Positions 487 through 23,215 of a stretch of 23,238 nucleotides of DNA are shown piece by piece. This stretch comes from a virus. The stretch is taken from positions 1 to 23,238 of the IMG/VR virus record IMGVR_UViG_3300030110_003311. One strand, written 5' to 3'. The notes beneath the pieces are model-generated. The model had not been told where the DNA came from and ran no database searches. It was given only the letters and a program-made list of their open reading frames with translations. Position numbers and translations under genes: made by a program. Numbering within the stretch: the stretch's first letter is position 1; the number at the start of each line of letters is the position of its first letter.

Positions 487-1236
487 ATGGCTAATACTAC
501 TTCGGGAACAGCAACGTTCGATAAAACTTTTTCTATTGATGAAATTATAGAAGAATCTTTTGAACGTATTGGATTAAATTCTGTGGCTGGCTATCAAATG
601 AAGTCAGCCCGAAGATCTCTTAATATCTTATTTCAAGAATGGGGTAATAGAGGTATTCACTATTGGGAAATAGCAGAAACCAATATTGACATGATTCAAG
701 GTCAAGCTGAATATAAATTTTTTAGATCAAGTGGTGATGGCACAAGTGCTGTTTCTACACCAGCAGATATTTATGGAATGTCCGATGTCCTTGAAGCACA
801 ATTAAGATCTAATAGAACTCAAACAACACAATCAGATAGTCCTATGACTAAAGTTGATAGATCAACTTATGGTGGTTTTTCAAATAAACTTTCTCAAGGA
901 ACACCTAATCAATACTTTGTGCAAAGATTTATAGATCACGTTAGTATTCAAGTGTATCCAACACCAGATTCAACTAATGCATCTAAAGATATGCATATTT
1001 ATTATATTAAAAAAATTCAAGATATTGGTGACTATACAAATGCAACTGATGTGCCATTTAGATTTGTACCTTGTATGACTTCAGGTTTAGCTTTTTATTT
1101 AGCACAAAAATATCAACCACAATTAGTACAACAAATGAAACTATATTATGAAGATGAATTAGCAAGAGCATTAGCAGAGGATGGTTCTGCTTCTAGCACA
1201 CATATAACACCTAAAACTTATTATCCAGGAGCATAA
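487..1236 (+). CDS. head-to-tail adaptor, P22 gp4-like
   Basis: The 249-residue protein is probably the connector that sits under the portal in short-tailed phages. The N-terminal part (about residues 16-60) forms two helices with the pattern of gp4/gp11-type adaptors: an Ile/Leu-rich helix with a G-L-N turn, then LNILFQEWGNRGIHYW, a motif typical of this group. A beta-rich middle and a C-terminal helix ending near E-L-A-R-A-L follow. Shine-Dalgarno TAGGAG overlaps the stop of the preceding gene. Its own stop overlaps the next start (TAATG). A second adaptor-like gene lies at 1981, as expected for a two-ring connector. The call rests on pattern similarity, and tail completion protein is an alternative name for the same role. 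Confidence 0.65.
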   Translation: MANTTSGTATFDKTFSIDEIIEESFERIGLNSVAGYQMKSARRSLNILFQEWGNRGIHYWEIAETNIDMIQGQAEYKFFRSSGDGTSAVSTPADIYGMSDVLEAQLRSNRTQTTQSDSPMTKVDRSTYGGFSNKLSQGTPNQYFVQRFIDHVSIQVYPTPDSTNASKDMHIYYIKKIQDIGDYTNATDVPFRFVPCMTSGLAFYLAQKYQPQLVQQMKLYYEDELARALAEDGSASSTHITPKTYYPGA

Positions 1237-4068: not shown

Positions 4069-5010
4069 ATGGCATCAACATACACACCTTTAGGGGTAGA
4101 ACTTCAAGCAACTGGTGAAAACGCCGGTACGTGGGGGACAAAAACTAATACCAATTTACAAATTATAGAACAAATTTCTGGTGGCTATATTGCTAAATCT
4201 ATAGCAGGTGGAGCTCAAACAACTGCATTATCTGTTTCTGATGGTTCTACAGGTGCAGAACTTTCTCATAGAATGATAGAATTTACAGGGACCATCACAG
4301 GAAATCAAATTGTAACAATACCTTTAGATGTTCAAACTTTTTATTTTTTAAGAAATTCAACATCGGGTGCATACACAGTACAATTTAAATATGTATCTGG
4401 ATCAGGAGATTCTTTTACTTTTTCAGCTACAGATAAAGGCGATAAAATTGTTTTTGCAACAGCAAACGATGGTACAAACCCTGACATAGACACATTAGCT
4501 ATTGGAACTGGTATAGCAAGTGTTGTTGAAGATACAACACCTCAACTAGGTGGTAATTTAGATACTAACTCACACAATATTTTAATAGATGATGCTCATT
4601 TTATTGGAGATGAAAATGGTCTTGAACAAATTATATTTCAAACAACTGCTTCAGCAGTTAATGAATTAGAAGTTACAAATGCAGCAACAGGTAATCCTCC
4701 TATCCTTGGAGCAAGTGGAGAAACAAATGTTGATCTTCATTTAAAACCAAAAGGAACTGGAGAGCTTAGAATTGGAACAGGTGCGGCTGCAGCTACATTA
4801 ACAACAAGTGGTGCACATGACCTTGTTTTAGACACTAATTCTGGGACAAACTCAGGAACTATTACTATCACAGATGCCGCAAATGGAGATATAACAGTAG
4901 CTCCAAACGGAACAGGTAGAACAAAAGTAACTAACGCAACATCAAGCTCAACACAAGTTGTAACAACAGATGGAAAAGCTATTGCATTGTCTTTAGTTTT
5001 CGGATATTAA
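4069..5010 (+). CDS. tail fibre / baseplate-like structural protein
   Basis: The 313-residue protein carries two signatures of marine phage fibre proteins. Near the N terminus (residues about 14-32) is ATGENAGTWGTKTNTNLQII. Near residue 155 is VVEDTTPQLGGNLDTN, a linker that recurs in many phage structural proteins. The later part has beta-helix-like repeats with LHLKPKGTGELRIGTG and GDITVAPNGTGRTKV, where short turns alternate with TIT-type strands. It likely forms a trimeric fibre or spike element. Shine-Dalgarno TAGGAG precedes the ATG. It is followed by a small protein and then by the glycine-rich adhesin, so this run probably encodes the distal tail. Confidence 0.65.
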   Translation: MASTYTPLGVELQATGENAGTWGTKTNTNLQIIEQISGGYIAKSIAGGAQTTALSVSDGSTGAELSHRMIEFTGTITGNQIVTIPLDVQTFYFLRNSTSGAYTVQFKYVSGSGDSFTFSATDKGDKIVFATANDGTNPDIDTLAIGTGIASVVEDTTPQLGGNLDTNSHNILIDDAHFIGDENGLEQIIFQTTASAVNELEVTNAATGNPPILGASGETNVDLHLKPKGTGELRIGTGAAAATLTTSGAHDLVLDTNSGTNSGTITITDAANGDITVAPNGTGRTKVTNATSSSTQVVTTDGKAIALSLVFGY

Positions 5011-5029
5011 TATCAAAGGAGAATAAAAA

Positions 5030-5389
5030 ATGGCAACACCAAATCTTGTAAATATAGCAACAATCACACCCAAAAATGCTATGGGTACTTTAGGTGATAC
5101 TAACAGAACTACTATGATTGATGTACCTGCAGAAACTGCAGTAAGAATTGATACAATATTATTAGCAAACATTGATGGTACTAACGCTGCTGACGTAACA
5201 GTAGAAATTAGTAATGACAATGGTTCAACTTATTATAAAATTGCAAGTACAATTTCTGTACCTGCAGATTCAACTTTAGATTTAATTGCAAGACCTATCT
5301 ACTTAGACGAAACAGATTTAATCGCTGTAACAGCTGGCGCTGCTAGTGATATAGCTTTCCATGTTTCTTATGTAGAAATGGTAGACTAG
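5030..5389 (+). CDS. small virion protein, hypothetical
   Basis: The 119-residue product is Thr/Ala/Ile/Asp-rich and predicted all-beta, with VTVEISNDNGSTYYKIAS in the middle, a pattern of beta-sandwich virion proteins. It has no cysteine, signal peptide or membrane segment. A good AAGGAG site lies upstream in a 19-base gap, the largest spacing in this run. The protein at 10907 has a similar size and plan (strand-rich, with EISN- or ISYL-type strands), so the two may be distant relatives. A role in the distal tail or as a fibre base is inferred from neighbours only. Confidence 0.6.
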   Translation: MATPNLVNIATITPKNAMGTLGDTNRTTMIDVPAETAVRIDTILLANIDGTNAADVTVEISNDNGSTYYKIASTISVPADSTLDLIARPIYLDETDLIAVTAGAASDIAFHVSYVEMVD

Positions 5390-5397
5390 GAGAATAA

Positions 5398-6012
5398 ATG
5401 CCGAAAATAATTAAACCCGCAAAAGGTACTTTTACAACAGCAGATATTACAGTCGACTCATCTGGAAGAATTGTAGCTGCGGCTACAGGTTCAGCTGGAG
5501 GTGGAGTTAATGTAGCAAAAAACTTTTTTGACTCTGGTTCTGGAAACTGGACGGCTAATTCAAATGCTACAAGTGCTTCAGCTTTTATTAAAGGTGGTGG
5601 CGGTGGTGGTGGAGGATATCAAAATAACGTTCCTTCTCCAAAACCTGGTAAAACTGGTGGTACAGGAGGATACGGATTTTATTTTGCACCTGTAACAGGT
5701 GGTGATTCTTATGCTTATGCAATTGGAAGTGGTGGTAACGGCGGACCTAACCAAAACCAAGGACAAGCAGGTCAAGCTAGTCAAGTAACTAATGTAGGAA
5801 CAGCAAACGGCGGAAATGGTGGGGGACGTGGTCCACAACCGCCAGGTAACGCAGGAACTGCTCCGGGTTCAACAGGTGACTTTTCGGGAAATAATACCCT
5901 ATTAGTTAATGATCAAGGCGGTGGCGGTAGCGGTGGAAGTACCAACGGTTCAGGTGGACAAGCTGGACAATCTGGGTTTATTTTAATTTACGATAATTCA
6001 GGATCAGTATAA
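5398..6012 (+). CDS. glycine-rich putative receptor-binding protein
   Basis: The 204-residue protein begins with KPAKGTFTTADITVDSSGR, a head found on phage fibre proteins, and becomes very glycine-rich from about residue 66 to 195. This region includes runs of seven and four glycines and many G-G-N/G-G-S steps, mixed with Pro, Gln and aromatic residues. It ends in a short hydrophobic strand (GFILIYD). Glycine-rich beta/polyglycine-sandwich tips are known in phage adhesins such as the T-even gp38 group. By analogy this may be the host-recognition tip. The preceding TAGGAG site overlaps the upstream stop. The gene is followed directly by the auxiliary cluster with two oxygenases, one of them prolyl-hydroxylase-like, which raises the idea that this protein is modified. 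Confidence 0.55.
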   Translation: MPKIIKPAKGTFTTADITVDSSGRIVAAATGSAGGGVNVAKNFFDSGSGNWTANSNATSASAFIKGGGGGGGGYQNNVPSPKPGKTGGTGGYGFYFAPVTGGDSYAYAIGSGGNGGPNQNQGQAGQASQVTNVGTANGGNGGGRGPQPPGNAGTAPGSTGDFSGNNTLLVNDQGGGGSGGSTNGSGGQAGQSGFILIYDNSGSV

Positions 6013-6013
6013 T

Positions 6014-6457
6014 ATGGCAAAGTATGTTATTAAAGATAGTGATAATAATTACCAATTCATCTGTGAAGATACAGAGTCTAGAGATTATTGGATAAATACA
6101 TATGCAAATTGTAGTTCTTATGAAGAAATATCTGATGCCGATTTTACAGAATTACAAAAAAATAATAAACAATTTACATCAACACATCCACTAAATACAA
6201 CTTTAATTGATGGTCCTTCTGATATAGATGAAGTTGAATATACTCAAGAACAACTTCAAAAAAGATTAGAAGAATTAATAAATCGTTTGGAAAAACAAAA
6301 TAGTAACACATTAAACCCTCCATCTATTTGGGCTACAAATTTAACTGCTTTAAAAGCAATTGATATAAGTTCTTTATCTTACCCAATCACAGGCAAGTCT
6401 TGGCTTGACTGTTTATTAAAAAATAGTATAAATATTCCATCTTCGATGGAATTTTAA
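6014..6457 (+). CDS. unknown acidic protein with coiled-coil
   Basis: The 147-residue protein is not recognised. It is Asp/Glu/Asn-rich with a predicted helix and coiled coil at about residues 77-98 (TQEQLQKRLEELINRLEKQN). The C-terminal part ends with YPITGKSWLDCLLKNSINIP. No catalytic or metal-binding motif is seen. The ATG follows the adhesin's stop by one base, with no clear Shine-Dalgarno, so it may depend on coupling. Its stop overlaps the next start. Position directly after an adhesin gene fits a fibre-assembly chaperone, but the sequence does not show that. It could equally be the first gene of the auxiliary cluster. Confidence 0.65.
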   Translation: MAKYVIKDSDNNYQFICEDTESRDYWINTYANCSSYEEISDADFTELQKNNKQFTSTHPLNTTLIDGPSDIDEVEYTQEQLQKRLEELINRLEKQNSNTLNPPSIWATNLTALKAIDISSLSYPITGKSWLDCLLKNSINIPSSMEF

Positions 6458-7194
6458 TGAATGAAAGAATAATTACTTTTTCTGCTAGTAAGATGTTAGC
6501 AGATGACAAAGAACTACAGCCTGAACCGGCTAAATTAAATATACCTGATTGGTATAAAAAAGTTCCAAATCCACCAAATGAACGTACTATAAAAATGTGC
6601 AAACCTTTTTTAGATAGTTTAACTGCAGGGTATATTTTAAAAAATCCAATTGATCAAAGAGTTCATTTTAATACACCTGATCCAAATGGAAAAAATAATA
6701 CTTGGGTAGAAGTGCATCCTAACTTAGAAATTTTTGGAGAAGTTTTTAGACAATCAATGAACTTTAATTCAGGAGAGGAAACACATGATATAAAACAAGT
6801 AGGCGGAATGACATGTCCATATGCTAAAAAAAATAAAGCATTTAATATTTACAAAATTTTAAATCCTTGGACTGTAAATGTACCCCCTGGTTATTCTATA
6901 CTTTATATGCCGCCTATAAATAGACCTGACGATAGATTTGAAATTATATCTGGTATTGTAGATGGTGATCATTCTTTACCTGCAAATTTTCCTTGTGTGT
7001 TTAAAAAAGAAGGTAGTTGGATATTAGAAAAAGGAACACCTATAGCATCTGTTTTTCCGTTTAAAAGAGAGGCTTGGAAAATGAAAATGGAACAATACGA
7101 CGAAAAAGATTTTTTAAAGAAAGCATTTAACTATGCTTCTAAATTGAGAAAATGGTATGCAGAAAAATATTGGAAGAGAAATAAATGGAACTAA
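6457..7194 (+). CDS. DUF6065-like protein of unknown function
   Basis: The 245-residue protein resembles, from memory, a family seen in marine phages and bacteria and named DUF6065. Recognisable elements are IPDWYKKVPNPP near residue 29, KMCKPFLDSLTAGYILKNP near 46, and NPWTVNVPPGYSILYMPPINR near 136. Later come SGIVDGD and NFPCVFKKE, then GTPIASVFPFKREAWKM near 200. The ordered strands and P-x-G turns suggest a compact beta fold, possibly cupin-like, but no metal triad is obvious. The C terminus is Lys/Trp/Tyr-rich. It overlaps the next gene, a 2OG oxygenase, by 10 bases, so the two are probably translated together and may act in one pathway. No function is established. Confidence 0.55.
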   Translation: MNERIITFSASKMLADDKELQPEPAKLNIPDWYKKVPNPPNERTIKMCKPFLDSLTAGYILKNPIDQRVHFNTPDPNGKNNTWVEVHPNLEIFGEVFRQSMNFNSGEETHDIKQVGGMTCPYAKKNKAFNIYKILNPWTVNVPPGYSILYMPPINRPDDRFEIISGIVDGDHSLPANFPCVFKKEGSWILEKGTPIASVFPFKREAWKMKMEQYDEKDFLKKAFNYASKLRKWYAEKYWKRNKWN

Positions 7195-7754
7195 AAAATT
7201 TAATTGGTGAGTACAATTTTTTAACACCTAAACAAGTATCTATATTTTTAAGAACTTTTAAAGACGTAAATAATTTTACAGATTCGACTGTAGTATCTGA
7301 AAAAGGAGATGGAGTAGTTGATAAAAGTGTAAGATATGTAAAAGATTATGGTTTAAATAGAAACAGAACTTTAACAGAAACGCATTGGTTTAATCTTCTT
7401 TGTTTTCTTTTAGGAAAAATTTCAAATCTTTATTTTCAAGATAGAGAAATTAATAATAGAATTCAAAAGATTTCAGACTTAGTGCTTTTAAAATATACTA
7501 AAGGAGGTTTTTATAAAACTCACTGCGATAGTGGCACACATAATCACAGAGAACTTTCTGCAGTAATATTTTTAAATAATGATTATGAAGGAGGTCACTT
7601 ACAATTTTTTGAACCTAATTCAAAAGATTTAATTTTAGATGTAAAACCTGATGTAGGTAAAGTAGTTTTGTGGCCAAGCAATTATTTGTTTCCACATCAA
7701 GCTACACCAGTAACAAAAGGAACAAGGTATACAATAGTATCATGGATGGTTTAA
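7185..7754 (+). CDS. 2-oxoglutarate/Fe(II) oxygenase, prolyl 4-hydroxylase-like
   Basis: The 189-residue protein has the catalytic set of the prolyl-4-hydroxylase-type 2OG-Fe(II) dioxygenases. His113-x-Asp115 bind iron in YKTHCDSG, the distal iron His171 lies in LFPHQATPV, and Arg181 in KGTRYTIVSW fits the 2-oxoglutarate carboxylate ligand. ELSAVIFLN and EGGHLQFFEP between them are the expected core strands. Such enzymes use O2 and 2OG to hydroxylate a protein side chain or small molecule. The target here is unknown. The length fits a stand-alone catalytic domain. It overlaps the DUF6065-like gene by 10 bases and the next oxygenase by 13, and it lies just after the Gly/Pro-containing adhesin. 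Confidence 0.85.
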   Translation: MELKNLIGEYNFLTPKQVSIFLRTFKDVNNFTDSTVVSEKGDGVVDKSVRYVKDYGLNRNRTLTETHWFNLLCFLLGKISNLYFQDREINNRIQKISDLVLLKYTKGGFYKTHCDSGTHNHRELSAVIFLNNDYEGGHLQFFEPNSKDLILDVKPDVGKVVLWPSNYLFPHQATPVTKGTRYTIVSWMV

Positions 7755-8290
7755 AAAAATATGTTTATATAAAAAACATTCTTTCAAAAGATGAAAGAGA
7801 TATGTTGTTTAATTATGCTAAAATGTATAATGCTCAAAATAAATGTAATTTTGAAACTCAAACAGATTTATTAGAAACTTATGAATATGGCGGTAGTTTA
7901 ACAGATTCTCTATTAGTATCAAAAAAGAAACAAATAGAACAAGCAAGTAATTTAAAATTAATGGAGACTTATAGTTATTGGAGATTATATAAAAAATTTT
8001 CTGATTTAAGCAAACATACAGACAGAGATTCTTGTGAAGTTACGGTAAGTGTAACTGTCAAATCAGATTTAGACGATTGGCCTTTATTTATAGATGGTGA
8101 AAGAATAATTATAGAACCAGGTGATGGCGTATTATATTTTGGTAATAAACTAAAACACTGGAGAGAAGAATATGAAGGGGATTATTCTTTTCAAATTTTT
8201 TTTCACTATGTTCTTGAGAATGGAAAATTTAAAGATTATAAATGGGACAAAAGAGAATTATTAGGAATAGGTATTAGCGGTGCAGTTTAA
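7742..8290 (+). CDS. 2-oxoglutarate/Fe(II) oxygenase, second subfamily
   Basis: The 182-residue protein differs from the preceding oxygenase and is not a tandem duplicate. It contains YSYWRLYKKFSDLSKHTDR, with His92-x-Asp94 as iron ligands, then CEVTVSVTV and EPGDGVLYFGNKLKHW with the distal His139. Arg141 or a later polar residue may bind 2-oxoglutarate. This matches a prokaryotic and phage 2OG oxygenase family of unknown substrate. The ATG at 7742 is preferred. A longer frame runs upstream to 7670, but that would overlap the first oxygenase by 85 bases, and its extra residues are out-of-frame translation of conserved sequence. The chosen start leaves a 13-base overlap typical of coupling. 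Confidence 0.8.
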   Translation: MDGLKKYVYIKNILSKDERDMLFNYAKMYNAQNKCNFETQTDLLETYEYGGSLTDSLLVSKKKQIEQASNLKLMETYSYWRLYKKFSDLSKHTDRDSCEVTVSVTVKSDLDDWPLFIDGERIIIEPGDGVLYFGNKLKHWREEYEGDYSFQIFFHYVLENGKFKDYKWDKRELLGIGISGAV

Positions 8291-8504
8291 ATGGAACAAA
8301 AATAGTTGTGAAATAATTTTTTCTAAAAAAGAAAGAAAATTAATCAACGACAAAGGATTAGTAACCGTTGATTATAAAGATGGAAGAAATTTTGTTAATC
8401 AATTAGCTAGAATAGTAACTGAAATACATATCAACTATAAAGAAAATAATCCTAATTTTGAAAAAGACTTAAGTTTTGATGACTCAGAAGTTAAATTAAA
8501 ATGA
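8280..8504 (+). CDS. small unknown protein, GTG start
   Basis: The 74-residue, charged product is not recognised. It is Lys/Asn/Glu/Asp-rich with an N-terminal beta-strand pattern (CEIIFSKKERKLI), a central helix (NFVNQLARIVTEIHINYKE) and an acidic tail. The start is GTG at 8280, with an AGGA-type site about 15 bases upstream, overlapping the oxygenase stop by 11 bases. An ATG at 8291 is in another frame and stops after four codons. It is the last gene of the AT-rich auxiliary cluster. The 58 bases after it hold a promoter-like element and no other gene. Confidence 0.55.
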   Translation: MQFKWNKNSCEIIFSKKERKLINDKGLVTVDYKDGRNFVNQLARIVTEIHINYKENNPNFEKDLSFDDSEVKLK

Positions 8505-8562: not shown

Positions 8563-10743
8563 ATGTTACAAAAAATAGGTTTTCAACCAGGTATAAATAA
8601 ACAAATCTCAGAAACCACAGCAGAAGGCCAGTGGGTAGACTGCGATAATGTTAGATTTAGATATGGCACACCTGAAAAAATAGGTGGTTGGAAACAATTA
8701 GGAACGGATGATTTGACAGGAGCTGTAAGAGGACTTCATCATTACGTTAATAGTCTAGGTAGAAAATATGCAATTATAGGAAGTAATAGAATTCTATATG
8801 CATATTCAGGAGGTATATTTTATGACATACATCCTATTAAATCTACTACTACACTTACGAGTGCTTTTAGCACTACTAATGGATCACCAACAGTTACAAT
8901 AACTTTTTCTGGTGCTCACAATATTGCTGCAGGTGAAATATTGTTATTAGATAATTTTACTACAATAACAGGATCTAATTTTGGTGCCTCTGACTTTGAT
9001 GATAAAAAATTTATGGTAACATCCGTGCCATCAACAACAACACTTACAATTACAATGCCTTCTAATGAAACAGGGTCTGGTGCAACAACATCAGGTGGTA
9101 TTAGAGTTCAACATTATTACCCCGTAGGGCCAGCTGTACAAGCAGAAGGATTTGGATATGGTTTAGGGTCTTGGGGTGGTGAAGCTGCAGGAGCAGTTAC
9201 AACAACTTTAAATGGTGCAATCAATGATTCTACAACCACAATAGTATTATCAGACGCATCACAGTTTCCTGATTCTGGAACAAACTTTATTTTAATTGGT
9301 ACAGAAGAAATATCTTATACGGGTGTTTCATCAAACACTTTAACAGGTGTTACAAGAGGAGTTCGAAACACAACAGCAGCATCTCATAGTGATGGAGCTA
9401 CAATTACAAATACTTCCGATTATGTTGCATGGGGTGAAGCGGCCTCAGGTGATTTAGTTATTGAACCTGGTATGTGGTCATTAGATAACTTTGGTGACAA
9501 AGCAATTTGTTTAATTGTTAATGGTGCTGTATTCGAATGGGATTCATCTTTATCAAATGCTACTGCAACAAGAGCAACAATTATTTCTGGTGCGCCAACT
9601 GCATCAAGACATATGTTAGTATCTACACCGGATCGTCACTTAGTATTCTTTGGAACAGAAACAACTATTGGAGATACATCTACACAAGATGACATGTTTA
9701 TAAGATTCTCGGATCAAGAAGATATAAACACATATATACCAACAGCAACCAATACAGCTGGTACACAAAGACTGGCCGACGGATCACAGATCAGAGGAGC
9801 AATAAGAGGTAGAGATGCAATCTATGTTTGGACTGATACAGCATTATTTACACAACGTTTTGTTGGTCAACCATTTACGTTTGCGTTTACACAAGTTGGA
9901 ACACACTGTGGACTTGTTGGAAAGAATGCATGTGTGGAAGTTGATGGTGCTGCATATTGGATGTCAGAGAACGGTTTCTTTAGATATGCTGGTAAACTAG
10001 AATCATTACCATGTTTAGTAGAAGATTTTGTTTATGATGATATAAATTTAACTTCTGGTAATCAAATGATATCAGCCGGACTAAATAATTTGTTTGGTGA
10101 AGTAATGTGGTTTTATCCAACGTCTTCATCATCAGTTGTAAATAGAATGGTTTCATATAATTATTTTGACTCTTCTCCACAAAGACCAGTTTGGACAAAT
10201 GGCACATTATCTAGAACTATGTGGAGAGATTCTGCGGTGTTTGGAACTCCACATGCAACAGAATATGATGCAAATACTGATACATCTTTTGATGTTGTAG
10301 GAAATACAGAAGGTATTACAACTTACTATGAACATGAAATAGGAACCGATCAAAATAAAAATGGAACTATAACTGCAATTACTTCAAACATATCCTCTGG
10401 AGATTTTGACATTACACAAGCAAGAGCACAAGGCACAGGACAAGCTACGGGTGTTGCAACATTTAGAGGAGATGGTGAGTTTATAATGAAGATAAGAAGA
10501 TTTGTACCTGATTTTATAAGTCAGGTAGGAGCAACTAGAATTACATTACAATTAAAAAATTATCCTAATAGTTCACAAGCTAGTTCACCACTTGGACCAT
10601 TTGATATAACATCTTCAACTACAAAAATAGATACTCGTGCAAGAGCTAGAGCTATTGCATTAAAAATACAAAATATAGCAGCTAGTCAAAGTTGGAAACT
10701 AGGAACTTTTAGATTAGATACACAACCAGATGGTAGAAGATAA
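8563..10743 (+). CDS. tail nozzle / tail tubular protein B-like
   Basis: The 726-residue protein opens with GFQPGINKQ, CDNVRFRYGTPEKIGGW and a stretch of strands (VRGLHHYV, KYAIIGSNRILYAY) typical of the gp10/gp12-type nozzle proteins of podoviruses. Two beta modules appear inserted at about residues 92-180 and 212-283. The second ends with LTGVTRGVRNTTAASHSDGA, a segment recurring in phage tail proteins. The middle (residues about 350-470) has propeller-like strands (RHLVFFGTE, DAIYVWTDTALFTQRF). Size and position after two adaptors fit a hexameric tail nozzle. Start is ATG with AAGGA upstream, and its stop overlaps the next start. The family identity is by pattern only. Confidence 0.65.
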   Translation: MLQKIGFQPGINKQISETTAEGQWVDCDNVRFRYGTPEKIGGWKQLGTDDLTGAVRGLHHYVNSLGRKYAIIGSNRILYAYSGGIFYDIHPIKSTTTLTSAFSTTNGSPTVTITFSGAHNIAAGEILLLDNFTTITGSNFGASDFDDKKFMVTSVPSTTTLTITMPSNETGSGATTSGGIRVQHYYPVGPAVQAEGFGYGLGSWGGEAAGAVTTTLNGAINDSTTTIVLSDASQFPDSGTNFILIGTEEISYTGVSSNTLTGVTRGVRNTTAASHSDGATITNTSDYVAWGEAASGDLVIEPGMWSLDNFGDKAICLIVNGAVFEWDSSLSNATATRATIISGAPTASRHMLVSTPDRHLVFFGTETTIGDTSTQDDMFIRFSDQEDINTYIPTATNTAGTQRLADGSQIRGAIRGRDAIYVWTDTALFTQRFVGQPFTFAFTQVGTHCGLVGKNACVEVDGAAYWMSENGFFRYAGKLESLPCLVEDFVYDDINLTSGNQMISAGLNNLFGEVMWFYPTSSSSVVNRMVSYNYFDSSPQRPVWTNGTLSRTMWRDSAVFGTPHATEYDANTDTSFDVVGNTEGITTYYEHEIGTDQNKNGTITAITSNISSGDFDITQARAQGTGQATGVATFRGDGEFIMKIRRFVPDFISQVGATRITLQLKNYPNSSQASSPLGPFDITSSTTKIDTRARARAIALKIQNIAASQSWKLGTFRLDTQPDGRR

Positions 10744-18936: not shown

Positions 18937-19437
18937 TTGACCAACTATATTGTTCAGAAAAAATTTTTAGAAAAAAATTTTTTTAAAAAAATTCAAAATT
19001 TAATAATAAACATAGATGATTTTCCTACTATAGAAAATGATTTTTCATGGTTTTATAGAGATAAAACTGAAATTAATAAAGGTTATTTTACACATGCATT
19101 TTTTAATAAAAATAAAGTAAGTAGTCCTTATTTTTGGAAATATATTGAACCTATTTTAATTCAATTAAAAGCTATTGCAGTTGTTCAAATAAGAGCTAAT
19201 ATGCTTATATTTAAAAATAAAAAATCTAAATGGCATACAGATTATTTATTTAAATGCAAAACAGGTATTTTATATTTAAATAATAGTGATGGAGGAACTG
19301 AATTAAAAATTAATAATAAAAAAATTTTTATAAAATCAGAAGCTAACAAAATGTTAATATTTGATAGTAAAATAAAACATAGAGCGATTTCTGGAAAAAA
19401 TTTTAGATATATATTGAACTTTAACTATTTTAATTAA
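18937..19437 (+). CDS. 2-oxoglutarate/Fe(II) oxygenase, third subfamily
   Basis: The 166-residue, Lys/Asn/Ile/Phe-rich protein ends with a clear 2OG-Fe(II) core. His100-x-Asp102 lies in KWHTDYLFKCKTGILYLN, followed by DGGTELKI and ANKMLIFDSKIKHRA with distal His148. Arg157 in NFRYILNFNY fits the 2-oxoglutarate ligand. The H-T-D-Y and NNSDGGTEL pattern matches a phage and marine-bacterial oxygenase group unlike the two at 7185 and 7742. The start is TTG, two bases after the holin-like stop, and no Shine-Dalgarno is visible. The next in-frame Met is at residue 89, too late to keep the fold. Coding DNA is extremely AT-rich (5 G+C of 60 bases in 18961-19020). It is oddly placed between holin-like and endolysin genes. 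Confidence 0.75.
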   Translation: MTNYIVQKKFLEKNFFKKIQNLIINIDDFPTIENDFSWFYRDKTEINKGYFTHAFFNKNKVSSPYFWKYIEPILIQLKAIAVVQIRANMLIFKNKKSKWHTDYLFKCKTGILYLNNSDGGTELKINNKKIFIKSEANKMLIFDSKIKHRAISGKNFRYILNFNYFN

Positions 19438-19440
19438 ACT

Positions 19441-19920
19441 ATGAATCTTTCACGTAATTTTACTTTAGAAGAATTAACTAAATCGGACACAGCGATCCGT
19501 AAGGGTATAAACAACAATCCTAATCCAGAACAAATAGAAAAATTAAAAACACTGTGTGAAAAAATTTTACAACCGGTGCGTGATCACTTTGGCAGAGTAA
19601 AAGTGACTAGCGGGTTCCGTAGCCCTATCTTGTGCCAGGCCATCGGCAGCTCAGCGAACAGCCAACATGCCCGTGCAGAAGCGGCAGATTTCGAATGTGT
19701 TGGAGTAGACAACGCTGAACTTGCAGACTGGATACATAGAGAATTAGAATGGGATCAATTGATCCTCGAGTACTACACTCCCGGAGAACCTAATTCGGGA
19801 TGGATACACTGCAGTGTAACAGAAGGCATGCCAAGAAAACAATTTTTACACGCGTATAGAGAAGAAGGTAAAACAAAATACAAACCTATAATGGGAAAAG
19901 CGAAAGACTTGTTTGTTTAG
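19441..19920 (+). CDS. peptidase M15 family endolysin
   Basis: The 159-residue protein is a zinc D-Ala-D-Ala-type peptidase of the M15 family, acting on cell-wall cross-links at lysis. SGFRSP at residues 57-62 precedes SQHARAEAADFE, where His76 and Asp83 fit zinc ligands of the S-x-H-x-x-G-x-A-x-D motif. The usual Gly is Ala79 here. WDQLILEYY carries a likely catalytic or supporting Glu110, and GWIHCSV supplies the third zinc ligand His123. There is no signal peptide, so it depends on the holin-like protein. The stop overlaps the minus-strand stop by four bases. Part of the gene (36 G+C of 60 bases in 19621-19680) is much richer in G and C than its neighbours. Confidence 0.85.
   Translation: MNLSRNFTLEELTKSDTAIRKGINNNPNPEQIEKLKTLCEKILQPVRDHFGRVKVTSGFRSPILCQAIGSSANSQHARAEAADFECVGVDNAELADWIHRELEWDQLILEYYTPGEPNSGWIHCSVTEGMPRKQFLHAYREEGKTKYKPIMGKAKDLFV
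19752..19818. repeat. two 14-bp perfect palindromes in the endolysin gene
   Basis: GGATCAATTGATCC at 19752-19765 and TACACTGCAGTGTA at 19805-19818 are each exact palindromes, 39 bases apart. They overlap codons for the conserved WDQLI and WIHCSV motifs, so coding constraint may explain them. They have no loop and would not form good RNA hairpins. As DNA they look like dimeric protein-binding or restriction-type sites. Confidence 0.6.
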
Positions 19921-20444
19921 GGAATATATATATTTTTTAATTCACTGTTTTTTATAGTCCACACAGCATCTTCCATAGACTCTACTAAAGGATATCTAGC
20001 TAAATTAAATGATGTATTTAATAGTAAAGGCACTTTAGTCTCTTCGTAAAACAATTTTATTAAATCATAATATTTAGGATTTTGTTCTCTTTTTAATGTT
20101 TGAAACCTACATGTATTATCTGCATGCACACATGCAGGCACTTCATCTATGGCTTTTTGTTTTGCATCGATAGCAAAACTCATACTCGGCGATTCATCTA
20201 GACCATGCATGTTTAAGTAATCATGTCTATGTTCATACAATATAGTTGCAGCAGTTGGTCTCCACCATTGTCTTTTTTTAATTTTATTTACTATTTCTTT
20301 TGCATTTGGATTTCTTGGATCAAAAAGCATAGACCTATTACCAAGAGCTCTTGCACCCCACTCTGAGTGTCCTGTAAATATTACAACTATTTCTTGATCT
20401 AAAATTTTTTTTACAGCTTTTAATTTATTTTTTATAATGTTCAT
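19917..20444 (-). CDS. O-carbamoyltransferase, C-terminal domain (split gene)
   Basis: The 175-residue product matches the C-terminal half of NodU/CmcH/TobZ-type carbamoyltransferases. Landmarks are GHSEWGARALGNRSMLFDPR (residues 25-44), KKRQWWRPTAATIL, SPSM at 85-88, VHADNTCRFQTL and VPLLLNTSFN. This domain binds carbamoyl-adenylate and positions the acceptor. It is encoded separately from the N-terminal domain: the ATG at 20444 lies inside the end of the upstream frame, overlapping by 20 bases. An AGGAG site nine bases upstream of that ATG could allow independent or reinitiated translation. The gene ends only four bases inside the converging endolysin. It may be a true two-subunit enzyme or a frameshifted single gene. 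Confidence 0.8.
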   Translation of the reverse strand: MNIIKNKLKAVKKILDQEIVVIFTGHSEWGARALGNRSMLFDPRNPNAKEIVNKIKKRQWWRPTAATILYEHRHDYLNMHGLDESPSMSFAIDAKQKAIDEVPACVHADNTCRFQTLKREQNPKYYDLIKLFYEETKVPLLLNTSFNLARYPLVESMEDAVWTIKNSELKNIYIP

Positions 20445-21378
20445 AAAGAGCTACTCCTACTGCTGTTCCACCATCGTATGGTATTGGATCTACAAAAAAA
20501 TTTAATTCAGGAAACTGTTTTACTAATTTAAAATTATTTGAACAATTTAAATGATAACCTCCGGTTAATATAATATTTTTACAATCACTGTATTTTTTTG
20601 CTTTTTTTATTAAATTAATTTTTTCTTCTAAAGTTTCTTCTTGTGCTTTGTTTGCTATGTTTAGAAGAGATTTAGATATACTAGTGTTTTTATTTTTATA
20701 AGCTGCAAGACCCATTAGTTGACCTTCTTGATTATTTTCAAATCCTGCTTCATGTGTATAATTAAGATATTTTAATCCTGCAATAGCTTTACTAGTTAAT
20801 AATATGTCTGTTTCATTGATTTTAAATTTATAATCATTTTTTTTATCTTCTATACCTCCTCTATAATTAGAAGCTGCTTTATAAAAAACTTTAAGTTTAT
20901 TATCAATAAAGCAAATAGATTCCATGGTTTGATAAGGTTGTTTTGTTTTATTAGATGATGGTATAATCTCTCCACCTCCATCGCTTACTAATATTAAAGC
21001 TTCATTAAATTTACTAAAATAAAAACCACATACAGCATGATGTTCATGATGCATTTTATTAAATACCCATTTTTTACAAGTTACTTGTTCTAATATATCA
21101 TTAATAATTTTTTGTTCCCACTGATCATTATTTCTGTCATAAGTAGATATAAAAACACAATCAAAATTTATATTTTTAAATTTTTTTAAAATAAAATAAT
21201 AATATGCACACTGTTTAACAAAACTTATAGATGGAATAGGAGAACTATCAGGATTAAAATGTTTAATTTTATTAAATCGATCTTCTTCATAATATTCTTT
21301 TAAAATGTCATTTTCGAAATAAGCAAAAGAACAATTATGAGAAATATTTATACCTAATGTTTTTTTAGTTATATCCAT
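20425..21378 (-). CDS. O-carbamoyltransferase, N-terminal domain (split gene)
   Basis: The 317-residue product is the N-terminal Kae1/ASKHA-like domain of the carbamoyltransferase family, which makes carbamoyl-adenylate from carbamoyl phosphate and ATP. It shows the metal motif HHEHHA (His110-x3-His114), VSDGGGE at 131-137, EGQLMGLAAY at 218-227, TGGYHLNCSNN at 272-282 and DGGTAVGVAL at 302-311. It stops shortly after the last motif, just where single-chain enzymes continue into the C-terminal domain. A run of six A bases (plus-strand T at 20428-20433) lies just before the TAA. With five A bases the frame would join the C-terminal domain to give about 486 residues. It overlaps the helicase gene by 10 bases, so they form an operon. 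Confidence 0.85.
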   Translation of the reverse strand: MDITKKTLGINISHNCSFAYFENDILKEYYEEDRFNKIKHFNPDSSPIPSISFVKQCAYYYFILKKFKNINFDCVFISTYDRNNDQWEQKIINDILEQVTCKKWVFNKMHHEHHAVCGFYFSKFNEALILVSDGGGEIIPSSNKTKQPYQTMESICFIDNKLKVFYKAASNYRGGIEDKKNDYKFKINETDILLTSKAIAGLKYLNYTHEAGFENNQEGQLMGLAAYKNKNTSISKSLLNIANKAQEETLEEKINLIKKAKKYSDCKNIILTGGYHLNCSNNFKLVKQFPELNFFVDPIPYDGGTAVGVALYEHYKK

Positions 21379-22799
21379 TCTTTTAATTCTTCACCCATAA
21401 CTTCAGATGCAATATTAATTTTATTACGTAGTGCCTTTACAATCTTTTCATCAACAGTATCTTCTGCTATAATATCAACATATGTCACCGTTTTATTTTG
21501 GCCTATCCTGTGCGCTCTGTCTTCAGATTGTAATCTTTTTTCTAAGTCATACCCATTAGAATAATAAATAACAGTATTAGCTTGTGTAAGTGTAATACCA
21601 TATCCTCCTGTTTGTGGCGTGCCTATTAAAAATCTACACTTTGGATCGTTTTGAAATTTACGAATAAAATCTTGTCTATCTTCTTGTGAAGTCAAACCAT
21701 AATAATGAACATAAGAATCTTTACCATATTCTTTTATTATTCTTTGTATGATTTCACTTACACTTAATTGATAGTTGGCCCATATAATAGCTTTACCCTC
21801 TGTTTCTTCTAACACAGACATAAGTTCATTAAGTCTATTACTTTCAACAGATTGTGTAGACCCATCGTCAGCAGTAAAGTGACCACATGTAATTTGATGC
21901 AGACGCATTAATTGTGTAAGCACAGTTATAGTAGAAGTAACTTTGCCATTTAATGTAGCGATAGCTTCTTTCTTCATTTGTTGATAAACTTTCTTTTGAT
22001 CTGGTGTTAATGTTACATGACGTTTAATAAAATTTTTAGGTGGTAGATCTAAACAGTCTTCTTTTAAAACTCTATAAGAAAAACCTTTTACTTTTTCTGA
22101 CAGTTCTGAAAGATTTTGAAAAGCATGTACAACCTGTATTGATCTACCACGTATGTGCATTGTTTTCATTTCTGCGTATCTATTACGAAAAGAATAATAC
22201 GAAGCATGATTCAATAAATACGGATCAAGGAACTCACATTGTGTATATAAATCTAATGGATTTTTAGTAATAGGAGAACCAGTCATTATTCTTCTATATT
22301 TTGCATACTTACCAAGACCTATAATATTTTTAGTTCTTTTAGCTGTGGGTGTTTTAATAGTTGTAGACTCATCAATAGCCATTAATACTTTGTGAGAGTT
22401 TAAAAATTTTGCAGCAAACTTTATACCTTTATCTGTGCTAAATGCTTCAACATTCATAACCAAAATATGTAATGCTGTTTCTATTTCAAACAAAGATTCT
22501 AATTTTTCTTGTTGTGTTTTTGTAATATTTGGTTGCCACAATACGGTCACATTTTCTATGTGGTTTGGTAAATGTGTAGGAAGCTCTTGCTCGTACCAAG
22601 TTTTTACAACACCTTTGGGAGCTACAATTAATGCACCATCAATCTTACCTTTGTCATACAACATAGCCATATTGTCTATTAATACTTTTGTTTTACCGGT
22701 ACCCATCTCCATAAAGTATGCGTACGTTTCTTTGTTCCATGACTTTTCTAAAGCAGTTAGTTGATGCTTATATGGTTTAGTCTTAAATTTATAATTCAT
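21369..22799 (-). CDS. SNF2-type superfamily 2 helicase
   Basis: The 476-residue protein shows SF2/SNF2 motifs in order: Q-like KPYKHQLTALEKSW near residue 8; Walker A EMGTGKTK at 31-38; motif Ia LIVAPKGVVKTWYEQE; Walker B AIDEST at 141-146; motif III MTGSP at 172-176. The second lobe has AIIWANY near 337, LIGTPQTGGYGITLTQA near 391 and motif VI QSEDRAHRIGQ at 424-434. These ATPases translocate on duplex DNA. Phage versions are associated with replication or recombination, but the role here is unproven. The Met at 22799 is chosen because it begins next to the Q-motif. A frame extension to 22847 adds residues overlapping a promoter-like sequence. It is first in a minus-strand operon with the carbamoyltransferase. 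Confidence 0.85.
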   Translation of the reverse strand: MNYKFKTKPYKHQLTALEKSWNKETYAYFMEMGTGKTKVLIDNMAMLYDKGKIDGALIVAPKGVVKTWYEQELPTHLPNHIENVTVLWQPNITKTQQEKLESLFEIETALHILVMNVEAFSTDKGIKFAAKFLNSHKVLMAIDESTTIKTPTAKRTKNIIGLGKYAKYRRIMTGSPITKNPLDLYTQCEFLDPYLLNHASYYSFRNRYAEMKTMHIRGRSIQVVHAFQNLSELSEKVKGFSYRVLKEDCLDLPPKNFIKRHVTLTPDQKKVYQQMKKEAIATLNGKVTSTITVLTQLMRLHQITCGHFTADDGSTQSVESNRLNELMSVLEETEGKAIIWANYQLSVSEIIQRIIKEYGKDSYVHYYGLTSQEDRQDFIRKFQNDPKCRFLIGTPQTGGYGITLTQANTVIYYSNGYDLEKRLQSEDRAHRIGQNKTVTYVDIIAEDTVDEKIVKALRNKINIASEVMGEELKEWI

Positions 22800-22810
22800 G
22801 TTTTTCTTTC

Positions 22811-22838
22811 TTGACTTATATATACACATGATTATATT
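22811..22838 (+). promoter_or_regulatory. promoter-like sequence for the divergent plus-strand gene
   Basis: TTGACT (22811-22816), a 16-base spacer and TATATT (22833-22838) form a sigma-70-like promoter. The usual start point, about seven bases downstream, falls within a base or two of the ATG at 22847. No Shine-Dalgarno precedes that ATG. If used, this promoter would give a leaderless or nearly leaderless mRNA. It overlaps the opposing minus-strand promoter over nearly its whole length. Confidence 0.4.
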
Positions 22839-22847
22839 GTTTGTCAA
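22819..22847 (-). promoter_or_regulatory. promoter-like sequence for the helicase-carbamoyltransferase operon
   Basis: On the minus strand, TTGACA (22847-22842, an exact sigma-70 -35 box) is followed after 17 bases by TATATA (22824-22819). A short leader with a weak AAGAAAG site leads to the ATG at 22799. The -35 box overlaps the first base of the divergent gene's ATG at 22847. The -35 match and spacing are good and the -10 match is moderate. AT-richness raises the chance of coincidence. Confidence 0.5.
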
Positions 22848-23215
22848 TGTCAGAAAGAAAAGTTTATGTAATACAAGAAATACCAGGGAGCAAAGCAGGT
22901 ACTCCTAAAATAAATATTATGGGTGCAGCTGCTTATTCTACAACCAATGATTTTATTTTTTTATTACCAGAATTTTCTCAAATGATTTTTTCTCCTGGTC
23001 CATTAATTTTTAAATTAAGAAAAGGTTTAAAAAATTTTACAAAAGAAGATTATTTACTTCTTACAGGAGATCCTGCAATCATTGGTGTTGCATGTTCTAT
23101 TGTATCTGATATTACAAACGGTAAATACAATGTATTGAAGTGGGATAAACAAGAAAGAAAATATTATCCTATTGAGATTAATCTATACGAGAAAGGAGAA
23201 ATAGATGACAATTGA
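22847..23215 (+). CDS. conserved hypothetical phage protein
   Basis: The 122-residue protein is of a type I recall from marine phages: KVYVIQEIPG at the start, DFIFLLPEFSQMIFSPGPLI, LKNFTKEDYLLLTGDPAIIG, then YNVLKWDKQERKYYPIEINL. No function is known to me. It has no membrane span or catalytic motif. The ATG at 22847 is chosen over an in-frame TTG at 22841 because family members begin next to the VYV strand. No ribosome site precedes it, and the promoter-like -10 box ends eight bases upstream. It diverges from the helicase operon and overlaps the following gene by 11 bases, with AAGGAG for that gene inside its end. It probably starts an early plus-strand operon. Confidence 0.7.
   Translation: MSERKVYVIQEIPGSKAGTPKINIMGAAAYSTTNDFIFLLPEFSQMIFSPGPLIFKLRKGLKNFTKEDYLLLTGDPAIIGVACSIVSDITNGKYNVLKWDKQERKYYPIEINLYEKGEIDDN

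Follow-up and report, generated by a model that had tools for sequence, protein, structure and literature searches.

Two unlike oxygenase genes and a DUF6065 relative are exchanged as a block with a glycine-rich adhesin in a pelagiphage-related virus

In a marine phage record from IMG/VR, five overlapping genes, among them those of two unlike iron oxygenases (OGa and OGb) and a DUF6065 relative, form a block that is exchanged together with the gene of the glycine-rich adhesin beside it. On the basis of this co-exchange and of its position, the block most likely tailors the adhesin. To our knowledge, marine phages often carry 2OG oxygenases as auxiliary genes, and there is no agreement on the substrate of these enzymes, with nitrogen control, DNA repair and iron or heme having been proposed. 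Linkage to an adhesin haplotype provides these enzymes with one specific, testable candidate substrate, and cultured pelagiphages are at hand. That 2OG genes cluster in marine phages, also beside OGb homologues, is already known; in the parts of the open-access full-text literature covered by a limited search, we found no account of a reclassification of OGb, of the exchange of the block with the adhesin or of the fold and context of DUF6065.

The window, that is, the whole stretch of DNA analysed, comprises 23,238 bases of a single IMG/VR virus record, and the block occupies positions 6014–8504, flanked by the Gly-rich adhesin on one side and by a virion gene of phrog_3287 on the other (Table 1). 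A preliminary description had singled out an AT-rich cluster of five genes with two 2OG-type oxygenases and a DUF6065 relative, joined by overlaps of 10, 13 and 11 bases. The open reading frames are present, their coordinates reproduce these overlaps (preceded by one of 1 base), and GC content is 0.26–0.29 across the cassette as against 0.33–0.41 in most of the virion region. The 13-base overlap follows from the ATG of OGb at 7742; an alternative in-frame GTG lies at 7670. The flanking labels survive in part. The adhesin matches phrog_863 and, below the cut-off of 24.3 bits, Gly_rich_2 (PF21722, E = 1.1e-4, 22.7 bits), its glycine content peaking at 38% in 80 residues, whereas for the supposed tail nozzle gene the match to phrog_3287 warrants the name 'virion structural protein' and no narrower one. 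By this protein, the window comes closest among cultured phages to the 023P-type pelagiphages, with 46% identity to both 023Pt_psg01 and HTVC027P. A search of phage records for near DNA matches to the window returned none, as did a tblastn search of phage isolates with the adhesin. Another gene of the window (487–1236, plus strand; phrog_12985) weakly resembles the phrog_3287 gene at the profile level (6e-27 in an iterated search).

Table 1. Genes of the block and its two neighbours in the window
Gene	Length (aa)	Coordinates	Strand	Remarks
Gly-rich adhesin	204	5398..6012	+	proposed substrate; exchanged with the cassette
vP1	147	6014..6457	+	fast-evolving; confined to the window haplotype
DUF6065 / phrog_7084 protein	245	6457..7194	+	predicted dUTPase-like β-clip fold
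OGa	189	7185..7754	+	prolyl-hydroxylase-like 2OG-Fe(II) oxygenase, PF13640
OGb	182	7742..8290	+	second iron oxygenase; PHROG label 'ferrochelatase'
Small ORF	74	8280..8504	+	GTG start; travels with the cassette
Virion structural protein		8563..10743	+	phrog_3287, 6.8e-97; borders the hypervariable slot

Used as a query against IMG/VR, the DUF6065 protein retrieved 80 loci. Among 85 loci that carry DUF6065, vP1 is found in 81, OGa in 84, OGb in 80 and the small ORF in 76, in the same order; gene set and order are kept in about 80 of the 85, down to about 40% identity. Because this set had been selected by DUF6065, we repeated the test on a second set of 80 loci picked by the downstream phrog_3287 protein. 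When both sets are combined and limited to loci with at least 3.5 kb of upstream sequence, vP1, DUF6065 and the OGa and OGb subtypes of the window are either all present (69 loci) or all absent (53 loci) across the resulting 122, with subtype cut-offs set after inspection of clearly separated score groups. vP1 is found in 69/69 block-positive and 0/53 block-negative loci, and the small ORF in 68/69 and 0/53, respectively. The short overlaps are conserved as well, DUF6065 and OGa overlapping by 10 or 25 bases in 80 of 82 loci and OGa and OGb most often by 13. This all-or-none content, together with the overlaps, bears out the earlier proposal that the genes form one unit. Two exceptions lie outside the 122-locus table: L144 has lost DUF6065 but kept vP1, OGa and OGb, and L127 carries a distant DUF6065 and another OGa.

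When 75 loci selected through the phrog_3287 protein are placed on its tree, haplotype A, that of the window, has to change five times, at least three of these changes being forced by starred branches; the haplotype therefore moves as a block. A recombination hot spot could by itself account for the synteny with the adhesin, and the block might then consist of passenger genes without a shared role, gathered beside the tail fibre. The hypervariable content of the slot would be expected of such a hot spot, but order, overlaps and all-or-none content kept down to the identity given above would not, nor would iron motifs that are invariant in both oxygenases, or their dN/dS below 0.5 (0.25–0.29 for OGa and 0.37–0.46 for OGb against two close relatives, with 0.10–0.14 for the virion protein); we regard a mere gathering of passengers as highly improbable. 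For DUF6065, the two comparisons give no consistent dN/dS: one yields 0.20 and the other, between very little diverged sequences, 0.89.

Relatives whose phrog_3287 protein is 79–93% identical hold other gene sets in the same slot. One alternative combines Gly-rich adhesins of another type (c13) with a 156-aa gene (c11) and other subtypes of OGa and OGb. Sister slots carry further 2OG families (PF13759, a weaker match to PF13640, and DUF6445-matching proteins, which may be related), as well as a tryptophan halogenase (PF04820, 4e-110), a NodU-type carbamoyltransferase and sulfotransferases, and many slots hold six or more 2OG-type genes. As alternative haplotypes thus pair other adhesins with other tailoring-type enzymes, the locus is a hypervariable adhesin-plus-tailoring locus. 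The cassette had been described as lying outside the standard make-up of a tail module; in these relatives, however, 2OG genes are usual at this position, with none detected in only 3 of the 122 slots, and the cassette is one haplotype among several. OGb accompanies 98/102 Gly-rich adhesins and 7/13 others (Fisher 1e-4, a value that ignores kinship and draws on haplotype A loci mostly selected by DUF6065). OGa-like genes also accompany c16- and c26-type fibres, which are not high in glycine, and some c26-type slots hold OGb-like genes too, so the Gly-rich association is not exclusive. In three sampled slots with LamG/SPRY-type fibres, the profiles used detected no 2OG gene.

The cultured phages HTVC023P and HTVC033P have the order Gly-rich protein, c11-like gene, 2OG gene, OGb. 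Clusters of HTVC023P-type pelagiphages are placed likewise, with a homologous gene of phrog_3287 type downstream, and their 2OG genes adjoin an OGb homologue, but DUF6065 finds no match in any pelagiphage isolate. In three other slots (L102, L121 and L157), the oxygenase cluster is inverted onto the minus strand and the fibre type differs.

OGa has the HxD...H iron triad and downstream arginine of a 2OG-Fe(II) oxygenase: H113, D115 and H171 are invariant in 40/40 aligned relatives, and R181 is nearly so. It matches PF13640 (E = 2.6e-19, 70.4 bits against a cut-off of 27), and its closest profiles in the PDB are those of P3H1, PHD2 and PKHD hydroxylases. Resemblance to bacterial and animal prolyl hydroxylases (P4H, PHD2/EGLN1, P3H1, PKHD) lies in the profile for OGa and in the predicted fold for OGb, but the two proteins are a phage subfamily. 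Of the PADLOC anti-phage defence models, OGa matches just the generic '2OG' accessory model associated with CRISPR, and no known defence system was recognized. The two oxygenases are unlike each other (pairwise hhalign P = 0.015), which agrees with the preliminary description in rejecting a recent duplication as their origin.

Enzymes of this kind might hydroxylate a host protein, such as EF-Tu or a ribosomal protein, and redirect translation during infection. The best structural match of OGb is a Pseudomonas P4H in complex with EF-Tu (4iw3), and OGa is protein-hydroxylase-like, but placement in the tail module and exchange with the adhesin would be unexpected for a conserved host target, and the large number of 2OG-type genes in many slots also argues against one; we consider this reading unlikely. 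Turnover of 2OG could itself be the function, with the phage lowering 2OG or making succinate and so retuning host nitrogen control, as has been proposed for cyanophages (PMC3037559). That published proposal and the presence of several 2OG-type genes per phage speak for this, but it leaves the linkage of subtypes to adhesin haplotypes and the retention of two unlike enzymes unexplained, and is the least probable reading that we considered.

OGb matches phrog_2954 (4.4e-42) and phrog_3531, both labelled ferrochelatase. It has no Pfam or NCBIfam match; even at E ≤ 1, no Pfam family, ferrochelatase included, was returned for OGb, three isolate homologues and two IMG/VR homologues, and a profile search of the PDB gave nothing significant. 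Its AlphaFold2 model (pLDDT 93) has the double-stranded β-helix fold and 461 PDB matches at E ≤ 0.001, of which the best 50 are almost all 2OG/Fe(II)-type oxygenases, with P4H and PHD structures ranking first. H92, D94, H139 and R141 are invariant in 38/38 aligned relatives, the HxD...HWR motif being nearly or fully invariant, and the 'ferrochelatases' of HTVC008M, HTVC033P, HTVC023P, S-RIM44 and S-SM1 keep these H/D/H/R residues. Given the conserved iron residues, the P4H/PHD-like predicted fold and the lack of a Pfam ferrochelatase match, the ferrochelatase label is probably wrong for OGb and its homologues. The PHROG names ferrochelatase and DNA endonuclease V were not adopted for cassette proteins, since motifs or fold speak against them.

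In 2OG enzymes, the co-substrate is usually bound by a basic residue 9–12 positions after the distal histidine. OGb of the window has no R or K there, so its 2OG dependence is only putative; the invariant R141, two positions past the distal histidine, may substitute for that residue. The evidence on OGb calls into question the label on which the heme and iron reading is built: the paper on HTVC023P-type phages places 2OG genes beside 'ferrochelatases', discusses iron and heme, takes OGb for a heme/iron ferrochelatase and names no substrate (PMC9599517).

T4-like cyanophage 2OG clusters (S-RIM44, S-SM1; T4-GC 412, 611 and 615) likewise comprise several 2OG genes together with a homologue of OGb in which HxD...HWR is present, but belong to myoviruses with another gene order; in S-RIM44, these are joined, upstream of the neck genes, by a DUF6065 homologue and two Trp halogenases. 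For such clusters, a role in DNA repair or 2OG metabolism has been proposed elsewhere. The S-RIM44 genes (L170, 879–8567) form one run upstream of the neck gene gp13, with the halogenases, DUF6065, two 2OG genes, a DUF6445-like gene, a JmjC_2 protein and OGb.

The DUF6065 protein of the window matches PF19541 below the Pfam cut-off (E = 1e-3, 19.0 bits against 26.6) and phrog_7084 at 1.4e-39, and its family aligns with 22 cellular members across 186 columns (hhalign P = 1.4e-7). For its AlphaFold2 model (pLDDT 88.8), all PDB matches among those listed are dUTPases, with partial overlap and query TM-scores of 0.23–0.41, and in BFVD unnamed phage proteins come first, followed by dUTPases. An hhalign comparison with 18 dUTPases scores 33, whereas none of 21 further slot gene families exceeds 23, and the aligned segment, GIVDxD...GTPxxQ, resembles motifs 3–4, GIVDxD recalling motif 3. 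dUTPases have five conserved motifs; DUF6065 lacks motif 2 (RSG) and motif 5 and has an extra domain. With the profile of cellular DUF6065, the dUTPase match is lost (P = 0.26), and a PDB profile search gave nothing significant. The model points to a probable β-clip fold in a protein that is probably no dUTPase. DUF6065, for which a literature search found no paper, thereby gains a first predicted fold, along with a common location at viral tail-fibre loci.

Were DUF6065 a dUTPase-like nucleotide enzyme, the cassette might modify DNA bases. The predicted fold and the GIVDxD motif would suit such a role, as would the ribonucleotide reductase (RNR) gene beside DUF6065 in haloviruses and freshwater phages, but the two missing motifs, the failure of the cellular profile to align, the location among virion genes and the resemblance of OGa to protein hydroxylases all tell against it, and we hold base modification to be very unlikely. 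An RNR-linked nucleotide role was considered because of these two RNR neighbours, and is retained only as a rival.

Six viral contexts were sampled, and in each DUF6065 sits at the tail-fibre locus: window-type podoviruses, c13-type podoviruses, S-RIM44 and relatives, the contigs L234 and L235, haloviruses and freshwater phages. In two of these contexts, no 2OG neighbours were detected. The Hafunaviridae halovirus locus resembles that of the window in that its tail module ends with a DUF6065 homologue near a Gly-rich adhesin, but belongs to an archaeal myovirus with no 2OG oxygenase annotated in the stretch; the adhesin is reported to control host range (PMC8651126). The annotated stretch around DUF6065 in HF1 likewise names no 2OG gene. 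Freshwater phages have an fn3 fibre, then DUF6065, then RNR; marine-slot profiles detected no 2OG neighbour in the contigs L242–L246, and a Pfam scan of unassigned ORFs beside DUF6065 in L243 left those of 198 and 749 aa without a match. The pairing of DUF6065 with 2OG genes emphasized earlier is thus probably not obligatory, as HF1, the freshwater contigs and the DUF6065-free cassette of L144 illustrate, whereas the position is not arbitrary, all sampled viral contexts being tail-fibre loci. In L234 and L235, tail-collar fibre genes are followed by three DUF6065 genes, which in L234 stand in tandem (4255–6495) right behind the fibre genes.

Cellular DUF6065 genes come from one order in 29/41 genomes. 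Twelve cellular regions searched for OGa and OGb relatives had none adjacent, so that nothing pointed to a pathway shared with the cellular gene; Caulobacterales regions carry DUF6065 without detected 2OG genes. A genome scan with the DUF6065 profile returned only two contigs, both phage-like.

Modification of the adhesin is our preferred reading because the block is exchanged with the adhesin, its enzymes are protein-hydroxylase-like and sister slots hold other tailoring enzymes. We give about an even chance to an adhesin-plus-enzyme haplotype whose oxygenases hydroxylate the adhesin, with DUF6065 acting at the same step. The cassette would be the enzyme half of this exchangeable haplotype, carried by a podovirus that has HTVC023P-type pelagiphages among its relatives. 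The Gly-rich adhesin, vP1, DUF6065, OGa and OGb would be co-produced from the operon; OGa and the diverged iron oxygenase OGb, of the same fold, would hydroxylate adhesin side chains before or during tail assembly, and DUF6065 would serve as a binding or presenting partner or as a further enzyme. Such modification would change the stability or the receptor chemistry of the fibre tip. We infer here that the enzymes are active and that the adhesin is their substrate, as we do the residues modified and the part of DUF6065.

The leading candidate target of OGa is the proline before glycine in PG[N/S/T] turns of the adhesin. In Gly-rich regions of haplotype A adhesins, whose sequences are related to one another, PG is enriched 1.56-fold (z = 8.2) and PGN, PGS and PGT 2.1–2.9-fold; haplotype B adhesins show no PG enrichment (0.93-fold). 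Such enrichment would suit a prolyl hydroxylase and fits structural turns as well. vP1 of the window has no family match in Pfam or PHROG and nothing significant in a PDB profile search; one of 43 vP1 relatives matches a tail-fibre PHROG, and vP1 is a possible adhesin chaperone.

The cassette might instead alter a cell-surface or small-molecule target, such as a receptor sugar or lipid, so that the lysing host and its debris stop binding progeny. Linkage to adhesin type would be equally expected in that case, and the neighbouring sulfotransferase and carbamoyltransferase are enzymes that often act on sugars, but OGa is nearest to protein prolyl hydroxylases, and we judge a surface target distinctly unlikely. 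Extending adhesin tailoring to marine phages at large, we put forward more tentatively that they encode interchangeable sets of 2OG oxygenases, halogenases, carbamoyl- and sulfotransferases and DUF6065 that tailor Gly-rich adhesins post-translationally, in which case receptor chemistry would depend on enzymes in addition to sequence.

Elsewhere in the window, a third 2OG-like gene (18937–19437, plus strand) matches PF13640 at 25.4 bits, just below the cut-off of 27. A NodU-type carbamoyltransferase (19917–21378, minus strand) is split into two overlapping ORFs, C-terminal (19917–20444) and N-terminal (20425–21378), and two-ORF splits of a similar kind are found in L099 and L164. The window further encodes a SNF2-type helicase (21369–22847, minus strand; PF00176 and Helicase_C) and a Pam3 gp32-like protein (22841–23215, plus strand; PF23992, E = 2.1e-28).
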